From positions 1-28,294 of IMG/VR virus record IMGVR_UViG_3300043015_001027: DNA of 28,294 bases. The stretch is one strand, 5' to 3'. This document shows, piece by piece, positions 1,764 to 8,827 of this stretch (position 1 is the first letter of the stretch; each line of letters begins with the position of its first letter). The notes beneath the pieces are model-generated. The model was given only the letters and a program-made list of their open reading frames with translations. It ran no database searches and was not told the DNA's origin. The position numbers and the translations under genes were made by a program. This DNA is from a virus.

Positions 1764-1960
1764 AAAAAAGAGGAGACAGTGGTCGGTTCTTTGGCGTTTC
1801 GTCCACACTCAGTTGACATACCTCGAAACTTACGTCGCTCGGTATATCGGTCGGTGCTTCAGGAGTTGCTCCCGAACTCAGTAACCGTCGTGGGTCCTAA
1901 ATGGTAGAGCTATTAACTCCGTGATTCCATCTCGCCGTCATGGTCTATTCCCACCGTCTC
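1764..1960 (-). ncRNA. candidate structured non-coding RNA, about 190 nt
   Basis: The interval between bS21 and the next gene is visibly less AT-rich than its surroundings and folds into a closed structure. The first 10 bases (1960-1951, GAGACGGUGG) pair fully with 1782-1773 (CCACUGUCUC, one G-U), forming a closing helix. Inside are at least four helices: AGAUGG/CCAUUU (1932-1927 with 1904-1899), GAGUU/AACUC (1879-1875 with 1867-1863), CGGU/ACCG (1887-1884 with 1855-1852) and an 8-bp helix (1848-1841 with 1822-1815) enclosing a GUAA tetraloop candidate at 1833-1830. CUC and six U residues (1769-1764) follow the closing helix. A perfect TTGACA-N17-TATAAT promoter puts transcription start on the first base of the helix. 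It is not recognised as tRNA, tmRNA, RNase P RNA, 6S RNA or a known riboswitch. It could be a free RNA or a leader attenuator for the next gene. Confidence 0.72.
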
Positions 1961-1967
1961 AAATTAT

Positions 1968-1996
1968 ATTATAATCTATTAATATAAGAATGTCAA
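1968..1996 (-). promoter_or_regulatory. perfect sigma70 promoter for the structured RNA
   Basis: TTGACA at 1996-1991, 17-base spacer, TATAAT at 1973-1968. The seventh base after the -10 is followed by G1960, the first base of the RNA's closing helix. It begins four bases after the bS21 stop codon. Confidence 0.88.
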
Positions 1997-2000
1997 TAGT

Positions 2001-2291
2001 TTATCTGTAATTTCTTTGTCCTCTTGCTGAAAAAGATCTGTTTTCCATTGCGATTCTTTTCTGATGTCTTTTTATGGCTTCAGCTTTTTTCCTTTTACGT
2101 TTTGCTGTAGGCTTTTCGTAAAATTCTTTATTTCTCAGATCCTTTAGAACTCCTGCTTTTTCAACATTCTTTCTAAACTTTCTCAACCCTACATCAAATG
2201 GCATTGCTGTAGGTGGTCTTTTATCTTTAGGATGTCTAGGTCTAGGTGTTAAGTCGACAGACAATCCTCCGTTCTTATTATTATATCTCAT
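2001..2291 (-). CDS. rpsU: ribosomal protein bS21 (phage-encoded)
   Basis: 96 residues. From about residue 31 it follows E. coli bS21 closely: [19 protein letters not shown], then [25 protein letters not shown] and an AMENRS tail corresponding to ARENAR. bS21 sits on the 30S platform near the anti-Shine-Dalgarno sequence and assists translation initiation. This copy is longer than the usual roughly 70 residues, with about 29 extra N-terminal residues (Pro/Arg/Lys-rich) and a short C-terminal extension. Phage-borne bS21 is known from pelagiphages. It has its own consensus promoter whose expected start site lies only 2-3 bases before the ATG, so the mRNA appears leaderless. An internal ATG at 2204 would give a more typical length but lacks a clear ribosome site. 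Confidence 0.95.
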
Positions 2292-3761: not shown

Positions 3762-3947
3762 CTATTCGTTATAATTAATACTGCTTGTTACTTTTTGTTT
3801 TTGGAACTCAGGATCTTCTCTCCATTCTTTCCAAACTTGTTCTGTAATTGGTTCTTGTGCTTTAAGACAAAAGTAGGTAGTAATTCCACCAAATACCATA
3901 GGACATAAGAATACGGCAAGTAATCCTAATTGTCCAATCATTTCCAT
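3762..3947 (-). CDS. small membrane protein, unknown
   Basis: 61 residues with one hydrophobic segment at about 5-27 (IGQLGLLAVFLCPMVFGGIT) followed by a charged cytoplasmic-type tail rich in E/K/W. It overlaps the end of glyA by 10 bases. Probably a single-pass inner-membrane protein; function unknown. Confidence 0.65.
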   Translation of the reverse strand: MEMIGQLGLLAVFLCPMVFGGITTYFCLKAQEPITEQVWKEWREDPEFQKQKVTSSINYNE

Positions 3948-5101
3948 TTTGTTGGGTCCTCTAATATATCAACAATTCTTTCCCCCAAGTTAATGAAATC
4001 TTGTTCTTTATAGCCTCTTGTTGTTTCAGCTGCGGTACCTAAACGAATACCGCTTGTTTCTTTAAAGTTTCTCGGATCATTTGGAATACCATTTTTATTA
4101 CAGGTAATTCCATGCATCTCTAATGTATCGGCAGCTTGTCTTCCACTTAATTCAGATTGAACTAAACTAACAAGAATGATATGCGAATCAGTTCCGCCTG
4201 TCAATACTTCCAATGTTTTTGCTTTATTTAATGTTTCAGCAAATGCCTTTGCGTTACTCACAACTTGAGCAGAGTATTCTTTAAACTCTGGAGTATTTGC
4301 TTCAATAAATGCTTGTGCCTTTGCTGCGATAATATTCATTAATGGACCACCTTGTGTTCCTGGGAATACTGCACCATTAATCTTTCTTGTATAGTCTGGG
4401 TTATTCCATAGGATAATTCCACCACGAGGACCACGAAGTGTTTTATGAGTTGTAGAAGTAACGAAATCAGCATAAGGTACAGGACTATCATATACACCAC
4501 CAGCAATCAAACCTGAATAGTGAGCCATATCAACCATTAAGTAAGCTTCAACTGACATAGCAATATATTTCATTCTTTCCCAATCAATTTGTCTTGGATA
4601 TGCAGAGGCACCTGCGATTAACATTTTAGGTTTATGTTCTTGTGCTAATCTTTCGACTTCATCGTAATCAATCATACCCCATTCATCAACACCATAAGTA
4701 TATGAATTGAACCACTTACCTGAGATAGTGACAGGAGCACCATGAGTTAAATGACCACCGCTTGCTAAATCCATTCCAAGAATTGTATCACCGGGTTCAA
4801 GGAATGCTTTCATAATCGCAAGGTTTGCGTTTGCTCCACTATGTGGTTGAACATTCGCAAATTCACAACTGTATAATTCTTTTAGTTGGTCAATTGCGAT
4901 TGTTTCTATTTCATCCATGAATTCACAACCATTATAATAACGTGCTCCGGGATAACCTTCTGCATATTTGTTTGTAAATTCAGAACCACACATTTTCATT
5001 ACCGCCTTTGAAGCAAAGTTCTCTGAAGCGATTAATTCAATAGTTCCTTTTTGTCGTGCAAGTTCTTTTTGATAAATTTTATTGATTCTTTCGTCTAACA
5101 T
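3938..5101 (-). CDS. glyA: serine hydroxymethyltransferase
   Basis: 387 residues, PLP-dependent fold type I. It converts serine and tetrahydrofolate to glycine and 5,10-methylene-tetrahydrofolate. Visible landmarks: LIASENFAS (23-31), YAEGYPGARYYNGCE (46-60), the GHLTHG region near 116, D191 in LMVDMAHYSGLIAGG (PLP ring Asp), and STTHKTLRGPRGG with PLP-binding K220. It is about 30 residues shorter than the E. coli enzyme, mostly in the C-terminal domain, with all catalytic blocks present. It lies downstream of thyX and ALAS in the same operon, which use its two products. The start is three bases after the stop of the glutaredoxin gene. Confidence 0.96.
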   Translation of the reverse strand: MLDERINKIYQKELARQKGTIELIASENFASKAVMKMCGSEFTNKYAEGYPGARYYNGCEFMDEIETIAIDQLKELYSCEFANVQPHSGANANLAIMKAFLEPGDTILGMDLASGGHLTHGAPVTISGKWFNSYTYGVDEWGMIDYDEVERLAQEHKPKMLIAGASAYPRQIDWERMKYIAMSVEAYLMVDMAHYSGLIAGGVYDSPVPYADFVTSTTHKTLRGPRGGIILWNNPDYTRKINGAVFPGTQGGPLMNIIAAKAQAFIEANTPEFKEYSAQVVSNAKAFAETLNKAKTLEVLTGGTDSHIILVSLVQSELSGRQAADTLEMHGITCNKNGIPNDPRNFKETSGIRLGTAAETTRGYKEQDFINLGERIVDILEDPTKWK

Positions 5102-5104
5102 GAT

Positions 5105-5365
5105 TTAGATTTCACTCATCCTATATTGATTTGATTTAATAAAGTCGTAATAAGTACCGATATAGTTATCGTCTTCGAATATTTGAGGAATAACATTTGT
5201 ACTTATATTCTGTTCACGGAGTATATTATAATACTTTTTCATTCCAATGTCAAGGAATTTATACTCTCCATACCATTTTTCTGCATATTGCTTTGCCTTG
5301 TCGCAGAATGCGCAAGATCTTGTTCCATAAATGTAAATCACGGCTTGGGTGTTTCTTCTTTCCAT
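5105..5365 (-). CDS. glutaredoxin
   Basis: 86 residues, a single thioredoxin-fold domain. The active site is C18-A-F-C21 in GTRSCAFCDKAK, with the cis-proline loop NVIPQIFEDDNYIGTYYDF near residues 57-75. Glutaredoxins pass electrons from glutathione to ribonucleotide reductase, which is encoded in this operon. A second glutaredoxin domain is fused to NrdB, so the operon carries two. The active site is CxFC, not the common CPYC. It overlaps the upstream gene by 28 bases in another frame. Confidence 0.88.
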   Translation of the reverse strand: MERRNTQAVIYIYGTRSCAFCDKAKQYAEKWYGEYKFLDIGMKKYYNILREQNISTNVIPQIFEDDNYIGTYYDFIKSNQYRMSEI

Positions 5366-6807: not shown

Positions 6808-7628
6808 ATTTTTCTTCTATTTAATGTTGTTGTTAATCCGCTGCGCTTTTCTTCGACTTCCATGTTCATTACTTGGGCTTCATCAACTAAAGGTGTAGCA
6901 GGACGTTCGCGGTCTCTTTTGAATGCTGCAGTTGATACAATCAACAACATAATCGCAAGAGGGTCAAATACAAAGATGATAGTTAAGATAACCCAACGAA
7001 CAGCATTATCATACATTGACTCTGCTTCTTCACCGTATATCATATCAGCAATATATTTTACAGGACCTAGTTCAGCTTCTTGTTCTAATTGTAATCTCTG
7101 AATAGGCATCTTCTGTTCGTTTAAAGAAACAATCTCTCCAACCAATATATCTATATCAGCATTGATATTATTTCTTTCTTCTGTTTGTACTCGGTTCACA
7201 TAATTACGATCTTCAGGTTTACTTGTTTGTAATACATAATCTAAATTTTCTAATCTTCCTGTAAGATTGTCCAATTGTAATTGCTTACCTTCTAACCTCT
7301 TGTCAACAATACTTGCTTCAAGAGAGTAACTATCTGATGTGACTGCACTGTCAATATGAGCTTTAGAAAGGAATCCAAATATACCCATACTTGTAATTAA
7401 CATAAGTACCACGACAGCGGTGGTGAAATATGCTCGGACTAAATTATTGATTCTGTCCCATTCATAATGGAGCCAGGCTGCTGATACAACTTTACCAAAT
7501 TCTAATATACTTGCCATGAAAGCAATTGATAAAGCAGCACCACTGAATATTGTCATCAGTCCTATAATACTAAAATACGCAGCTGTTCCTGCGAGTGATA
7601 ATGATGTAAATAATGTTAACCACTTCAT
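6804..7628 (-). CDS. multi-pass membrane protein with periplasmic or cytoplasmic coiled coil
   Basis: 274 residues. Hydrophobic segments at about 5-27, 29-50, 66-87 and 209-234 flank a long charged helical region (about 101-185) with heptad-like Leu spacing ([20 protein letters not shown]). The C-terminal 40 residues are hydrophilic. Proteins of this layout occur in marine T4-like phages, as I recall, without known function. It overlaps ALAS by 4 bases and DUF454 by 4 bases, so the three are likely translated in a coupled way. Membrane location is well supported; function is unknown. Confidence 0.75.
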
Positions 7629-8827
7629 GTTATTTCTCTAAATGTTTCTTTCAGAGCAAGAACTAAATTTTCCATCATACCATTGGTGTGAAGTGGAGTT
7701 GGTGTAATTCTAAGCCGCTCTGAACCCACATCGACTGTTGGGTAATTAATAGGCTGAACATATATTCCATAATCGTTTAACAACTTATCTGACATAATTT
7801 TGCATTTCTTTGCATCTCTTACCATAACAGGTAATATATGAGTACAACTATTTTGGTGTAATTCTATTTCATTTTCTTCAAATAACTTTCTTAGTGTGTT
7901 TGCTCGTTCTTGATGTTGTTCTCTTAATTCATTATGTTCTTTTAAATAACGAATTGAAGCAATTGCTCCTGCACACATAACAGGACTTAAACTTGTCGTA
8001 AAGATAAACCCTGAAGCTACAGACCTAATAGCATCGAGGACAATACTATCACCAGCAATATAACCACCGTGACAACCAAACGCCTTTCCAAGTGTTCCAT
8101 TTATAATATCTACTCTATCGGAGAGTCCTAACTTTTCGCAGTACCCAGCTCCTGTGTCACCATAAAGTCCTACTGCATGAACTTCATCAATATATGTAAT
8201 TGCATTATACTTATCAGCAAGATCACATACTTCTTTAATTGGTGCAACATCTCCATCCATACTATATACGGATTCAAATACAATACACGGAACTTGATTA
8301 TTCATTTGCGCTGTTTGTAATGCAAGCTCAAGATCGTCCATGTTATTATGTTCCCAAATAATTTTATCTGCTCGAGAATGTTTAATACCCATAATCATTG
8401 AAGCATGATTTTTATTATCAGATATAAAACAAATATTTGGTATAATACGACTTAGTGCAATTAATGTCCATTCATTAGCAACATAGGCAGAAGTAAATAA
8501 TAAACCTTTTTCTTTTTGATGAAGGTCAGCTAAAACATTTTCAAGAGTAACATGATAATGAGAGGTACCGCCGATATTGCGAGTACCCCCACTACCACTT
8601 CCTGTTTTCTCTAACGCAGTTGCCATCGCATCGATGACATACTTGTTTTGTCCTTGACATAAGTAATCATTAGAACACCAATTGACAATTGTCTTAGGTG
8701 AATATTTAGAATACCATGTTGCTTTAGGAAAGTTTCCCCTCTCCCTTACAATGTCGTTAAAGACTCGATACTTGCCTTCTTTTTTGAGAGTATCAACTAC
8801 GTCTTGAAAGTATTTCTTGTTTATCAT
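7625..8827 (-). CDS. hemA: 5-aminolevulinate synthase (ALAS, Shemin pathway)
   Basis: 400 residues, alpha-oxoamine synthase family, PLP-dependent. It condenses glycine and succinyl-CoA to 5-aminolevulinate, the first step of tetrapyrrole synthesis in alphaproteobacteria. Distinguishing ALAS from related KBL and BioF enzymes are [14 protein letters not shown] (23-36), [18 protein letters not shown] with T82 and N84, and R21, positions that contact succinyl-CoA in the Rhodobacter enzyme. Also visible are [14 protein letters not shown] (184-197), D214 in [13 protein letters not shown] and PLP lysine K248 in NGTLGKAFG. The length is normal and no motif is missing, so it is probably active. Phage-borne ALAS genes have been reported from aquatic phage sequences. 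Here it is between nrdB and membrane genes in a nucleotide-synthesis operon that also carries glyA, a source of glycine. Confidence 0.96.

Follow-up and report, generated by a model that had tools for sequence, protein, structure and literature searches.

A conserved structured RNA with a duplicated core, encoded behind a bS21 gene in marine T4-like phages

The window analysed here is the whole 28,294-nt stretch of IMG/VR virus record IMGVR_UViG_3300043015_001027. Between a phage gene for ribosomal protein bS21 and a gene of family phrog_27048 lies a structured RNA, all of whose features are on the minus strand; the first-pass annotation of this DNA had given no strand. The locus comprises the following:

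2001..2291, minus strand: phage bS21 gene, directly upstream of the RNA (PF01165, E 1.5e-16; phrog_21469), its product being a partner candidate
1968..1996, minus strand: consensus sigma70 promoter TTGACA-17-TATAAT, 12 of 12 positions matching, spacer 17
1764..1960, minus strand: predicted structured ncRNA transcript including its U tail
1764..1769, minus strand: U6 run, terminator-like, 3 nt past helix P1
1331..1747, minus strand: downstream gene (phrog_27048), with a conserved ATG start at 1747

The body of the RNA in its 188-nt form runs from 1960 to 1773. In the window, the first base of the closing helix P1 falls 7 nt past the −10 element, and the promoter register predicts that transcription starts on this very base of the 10-bp helix; judging from the sequence, the transcript would thus begin at 1960. 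The fold energy of the minus strand is lower than that of most shuffles (z = −2.9, with 2 of 200 equally good), and that of the plus strand is no better than shuffles (z = +0.5). The 188-nt stretch is also the GC maximum of the window, at 52% against 35% (1 of 2811 windows), and stop codons in six of six frames indicate that it is not coding. Automatic ORF calls may place the start of the downstream gene at 1819, within the RNA, the conserved ATG being at 1747. These results bear out what the first-pass annotation had read from the letters, namely a free-standing RNA of about 190 nt that has its own perfect promoter, starts where a 10-bp closing helix begins, has U6 3 bases after that helix, is richer in G and C than its surroundings and lies right behind a bS21 gene. 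A U run behind a long-range helix is a poor classical terminator, and some variants have no U run.

Perfect TTGACA-17-TATAAT promoters recur in this genome, with five on the coding strand of the first 20 kb (14218, 13634, 5253, 2329 and 1996, minus strand). The one at 5253 falls within a glutaredoxin ORF (5105-5365). The bS21 promoter (2329-2291, minus strand) has a −10 element ending at 2301; with the ATG only 9 nt further on, at 2291, the bS21 mRNA would be almost leaderless. Elsewhere in the window, two minus-strand genes, 7625-8827 for 5-aminolevulinate synthase (TIGR01821, E 5e-169) and 3938-5101 for serine hydroxymethyltransferase, form a haem-precursor and glycine pair.

Comparison with the 4227 families of Rfam 15, which include tRNA, tmRNA, RNase P, 6S, group I, riboswitches, OLE, GOLLD, ROOL and CsrB, gave no match at the gathering cut-off in the window or at the loci of six relatives. 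Searches of the RNA itself at E values up to 10 returned chance matches only, and ARAGORN called no tRNA or tmRNA gene for it, in agreement with the first-pass annotation, which had not recognised it as tRNA, tmRNA, RNase P RNA, 6S RNA, group I intron or a known riboswitch. Since no Rfam family resembles it and no description was found in the papers searched, the family looks new relative to Rfam 15 and to those papers; the lack of Rfam matches, together with the covariation presented below, supports the suggestion of a new phage ncRNA class. Phage ncRNAs without an assigned function are as such already known, GOLLD and ROOL among them, and the mechanism may be of a known type. GOLLD and ROOL are ornate phage-borne ncRNAs often found near tRNAs (PMC12286853). 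The present RNA is likewise phage-borne, non-coding and elaborately folded, and in variant L031 it adjoins a tRNA-Thr, but it measures ~90-190 nt against several hundred, matches neither covariance model and so far gives no sign of oligomer cages.

About 78 IMG/VR contigs carry the RNA, two of them in partial form, and 36 distinct sequences were aligned. The figure of ~78 is our own count over lists obtained by scanning with neighbouring proteins and RNA-derived DNA patterns, made after 8 chance matches of one pattern scan had been dropped by eye. A first covariance model (R1) detected one copy per record in 11 of 11 records and none in 20 related records; the conservation in related phages on which the first-pass annotation had made its reading depend is thereby confirmed. 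Against 50,697 phage records BLAST gave nothing beyond a chance-like match of 28 nt in coding sequence of Aeromonas phage AerS_266, and by BLAST the RNA is absent from annotated phage isolates. A pattern search in 85k prokaryote species produced 88 matches, 80 of which were scored with covariance model R1 and gave two weak chance matches only, and the same model found none in ~784 genomes of Burkholderiales and Alphaproteobacteria. The first-pass annotation had proposed pelagiphage genomes for the comparison, but a pelagiphage identity of the carriers is not supported: NrdA places the OM43 methylophage Melnitz nearest among isolates (74%), and Melnitz lacks the RNA. Covariance models R1 and R2 on Melnitz, and R2 on HTVC008M, returned only an 18-bit match inside a Melnitz CDS. 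Record L175, a T4-like fragment, belongs to one clade with L018, their major capsid proteins agreeing at 87%.

The structure derived from the alignment comprises the following elements, from the closing helix inwards:

1951..1960, minus strand: 5′ strand of P1, GAGACGGUGG, pairing with 1773-1782; 1959-1774, 1958-1775 and 1957-1776 covary
1773..1782, minus strand: 3′ strand of P1, CCACUGUCUC, with covariation
1883..1945, minus strand: domain A, an antiparallel CCAYGACGG ... CCAYGACGG pair plus the P2 hairpin, missing from the 92-nt minimal form
1901..1930, minus strand: P2 hairpin, 1930-1928 pairing with 1903-1901; apex exchangeable, here of the 26-nt GGAAUCACGGAGUUAAUAGCUCUACC type
1850..1882, minus strand: first repeat (R1) of domain B, ACUGA-GUUC-GGGAGCAACUCCUGAA-GCAC-CGAC
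1782..1813, minus strand: second repeat (R2) of domain B, ACUGA-GUGU-GGACGAAACGCCAAA-GAAC-CGAC
1874..1877, minus strand: 5′ strand of P3a, GUUC, pairing with GAAC at 1786-1789; 1877-1786 and 1875-1788 covary
1786..1789, minus strand: 3′ strand of P3a, GAAC, with covariation
1854..1857, minus strand: 5′ strand of P4, GCAC, pairing with GUGU at 1805-1808, with two-sided changes
1805..1808, minus strand: 3′ strand of P4, GUGU, with two-sided changes
1815..1848 (about), minus strand: P5, a lineage-specific insert hairpin with a GUAA tip in the P4 loop, GAUAUACC...GGUAUGUC

Domain B is an internal duplication in which ACUGA-N4-GG..AAC.CC..AA-N4-CGAC is present twice (p = 0.0005 in the window and 0.0035 in L061 and L066; not significant in some variants). 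P3a joins the beginning of copy 1 to the end of copy 2, and P4 the beginning of copy 2 to the end of copy 1, which makes domain B a pseudo-two-fold rod. An optional 5′ domain (A) and swappable hairpin tips are inserted into this core. In the L284 group the RNA is 92 nt long and lacks domain A, its promoter and P1 unchanged, and in the L133 group separate stems close the two domains, a pairing read by eye; a pattern search for more minimal forms found none outside these two groups. At 1941-1887 the A.C mismatch of domain A becomes G.U in L290 and L307 (2 sequences), an isosteric change as expected for domain A pairing. The P2 tips are swapped as modules (GNRA loops, a 26-nt insert or a 38-nt insert), and P4 optionally bears P5. 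This last hairpin is the GUAA-capped one noticed at first; it is real, yet specific to a lineage. Of the four or more inner helices proposed from the window, inner helices as such do exist, but several of the minimum-energy ones are not conserved and were redrawn from covariation; the resulting structure lies ~9.5 kcal/mol above the free minimum-energy fold.

The 26-nt P2 insert (1927-1904, minus strand) hardly varies in sequence between RNAs that have otherwise diverged, as though recombination moved it or it were a binding motif in its own right. Part of it (18-23 identical bases; L115 1501-1528, L189 1717-1734) recurs in other phages, within a gene annotated in AerS_266 and in L189, probably by chance. 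In L025, L290 and L031 the P2 tip is of a third type, ~38 nt long, with the sequence UUGUYCUUACGUUUGAAAMACAACGUAUCAURACGUAAC; it could fold as an H-type pseudoknot, and a remnant of it lies next to tRNA-Thr in L065.

Alignment A2, which holds 34 distinct sequences and was fitted to the proposed structure, has 95.7% of its cells paired and two-sided changes in 20 of 28 pairs, with a covariation score of 0.478 against 0.21 ± 0.012 for shuffled and at most 0.105 for slid controls. Because A2 had been fitted to the structure, two further tests were run; the model alignments A3 and A4, in which P1 is mis-registered, were left out. The first, our own test with approximate E-values, used a null obtained by simulation along the tree at site-matched rates: the top six column pairs of the whole alignment belong to P1, P2 and P3a, each with E ≤0.04, and the pairs of P3, P4 and domain A are individually weaker. 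In the second, a structure-blind MAFFT alignment of the 36 sequences, pairs of P1, P3a and P2 lead again (E 0.000-0.065). The covariation that the first-pass annotation had named as decisive is thus present on a tree-aware null and on a structure-blind alignment alike. All four pairs of P4 vary on both sides (CUAC/GUAG, CUGU/ACAG, GCAC/GUGU, CAG/CUG), with single-pair E of 0.7-144 on the tree-simulated null. Also ranked high by the structure-blind alignment is a contact between 1862/1863 and 1799/1800, where about half of the sequences have C-G. This contact suggests pairing between strands of the central loop and renders the local P3 hairpin tentative.

Among 38 variants examined, 28 have the arrangement of a free-standing ncRNA gene, with an own promoter starting at the first helix, and in all 28 that promoter is perfect. 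The own promoter claimed for the window therefore stands there and in these variants but is not universal, being absent from the other 10. P1 begins 5-9 nt past the −10 element in most promoter-bearing variants and 14 nt past it in L141, L161 and L290, whose P1 looks longer. The 10 promoterless variants lie close behind the bS21 stop codon, in the bS21 3′ UTR, and in 7 of them a new TTGACA..TATAAT promoter separates the RNA from the downstream gene. In most carriers the RNA is found 20-35 nt upstream of a start codon. It occupies at least three genomic places in related T4-like phages, with different downstream genes, and some bS21 phages have an empty site, some 30-40 nt separating bS21 from the next gene. 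In the L133/L175, L141, L161, L290 and L307 groups the RNA is not beside bS21; these records are fragments, and for this reason the lack of bS21 in L175 is uninformative.

We are nearly certain that this is a real structured RNA, its structure, conservation, promoter register, modularity and change of genomic place having all emerged computationally. Its presence at three or more locations in related phages indicates that it probably acts in trans; its free-standing transcription units, its changing neighbours and the conservation of its internal loops speak for a trans-acting binder rather than a leader. The conserved bases sit in internal loops and junctions, with no free 3′ seed; that the RNA binds a protein is in our estimation an even prospect. 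A trans-acting, free-standing, protein-binding structured RNA of a marine T4-like phage clade is the best explanation overall, held with about as much belief as doubt. Host sigma70 RNA polymerase would make the RNA from the consensus promoter, probably early, and in some lineages the RNA would be left as a 3′ UTR of the bS21 mRNA. It would fold into P1, the pseudo-two-fold-symmetric rod of domain B and, optionally, a second rod (domain A). Through its conserved duplicated internal loops the RNA would most likely bind protein, either to act as a decoy or to form a ribonucleoprotein that targets RNA or the translation machinery of host or phage.

The RNA could be one half of a phage bS21 ribonucleoprotein: bound to it, phage bS21 would be kept in store, carried to ribosomes or put to a use outside the ribosome. 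We consider this doubtful, and equally doubtful the choice of bS21 as partner, for which the evidence is adjacency: the RNA adjoins bS21 in most carriers, and ten variants examined sit promoterless within the bS21 transcript. Phage bS21 is thought to alter ribosomes (PMC9723584), and host bS21 is a proven component of the OLE ribonucleoprotein, bound through an SD/anti-SD-like duplex (PMC12054373); because bS21 binds OLE, an unrelated RNA, it is the leading testable partner. Both cases link a structured ncRNA to bS21. OLE, however, is not homologous (no Rfam match), the link here is gene adjacency alone, a conserved SD/anti-SD-like duplex, which bS21 requires in OLE, was not seen, RNA-less bS21 phages exist, and in the groups named above the RNA is away from bS21, which in such fragments may lie elsewhere. 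Gene co-occurrence among G003, G001 and Melnitz was rejected as a pointer to a partner, these genomes being too closely related.

A cis-acting leader or riboswitch of the downstream gene, an unlikely reading, would suit the usual distance to a start codon and the SD-like bases found there, and related marine phages use glutamine riboswitches (PMC9004378). Against it, the downstream genes are three unrelated ones across the genomic places rather than a single family, seven variants have a promoter between RNA and gene, a U run stands at the end of P1, and no Rfam riboswitch matches even at E 10. Short AGUAAGG/CC-GAA strings of the 92-nt form resemble the glutamine riboswitch (glnA, RF01739), but the helix order differs, the RNA here is free-standing, and RF01739 does not match the minimal form up to E 10, leaving the resemblance unsupported.

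An antisense sRNA pairing with host or phage mRNAs is improbable: size, strong promoter and U tail are like those of enteric sRNAs, but the most conserved bases lie in helices, internal loops and closed junctions, and neither a single-stranded seed nor a 3′ tail is conserved. The least probable reading, a CsrA/RsmA sponge titrating the dimeric host regulator with paired GGA motifs, has in its favour GGA in both core repeats, as in CsrB/RsmZ, and a symmetric layout suited to a dimer, but is disfavoured since GGA stays near dinucleotide-shuffle level in 5 of 6 variants (6 against 5.6 in the window; only L061 is clearly above, at 7 against 4.4), the rigid, widely conserved core extends far past GGA, no Rfam family matches and seven phage records have no CsrA.

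Within the preferred reading of a trans-acting, protein-binding RNA, we tentatively propose that the duplicated, pseudo-two-fold core acts as a rigid device that binds a dimeric protein or two ligand molecules, with a swappable periphery, abundant early and capturing a host factor; a ribosome-associated protein, bS21 or a defence signal are examples of what might be captured. If true, this would make it the RNA counterpart of phage protein sponges. The covariation-backed structure, the 92-nt minimal form, the natural insertion and deletion variants and the empty sites lend themselves to direct probing, pull-down and deletion. The finding would show that marine T4-like phages spend a consensus promoter on a highly folded RNA beside a translation gene.
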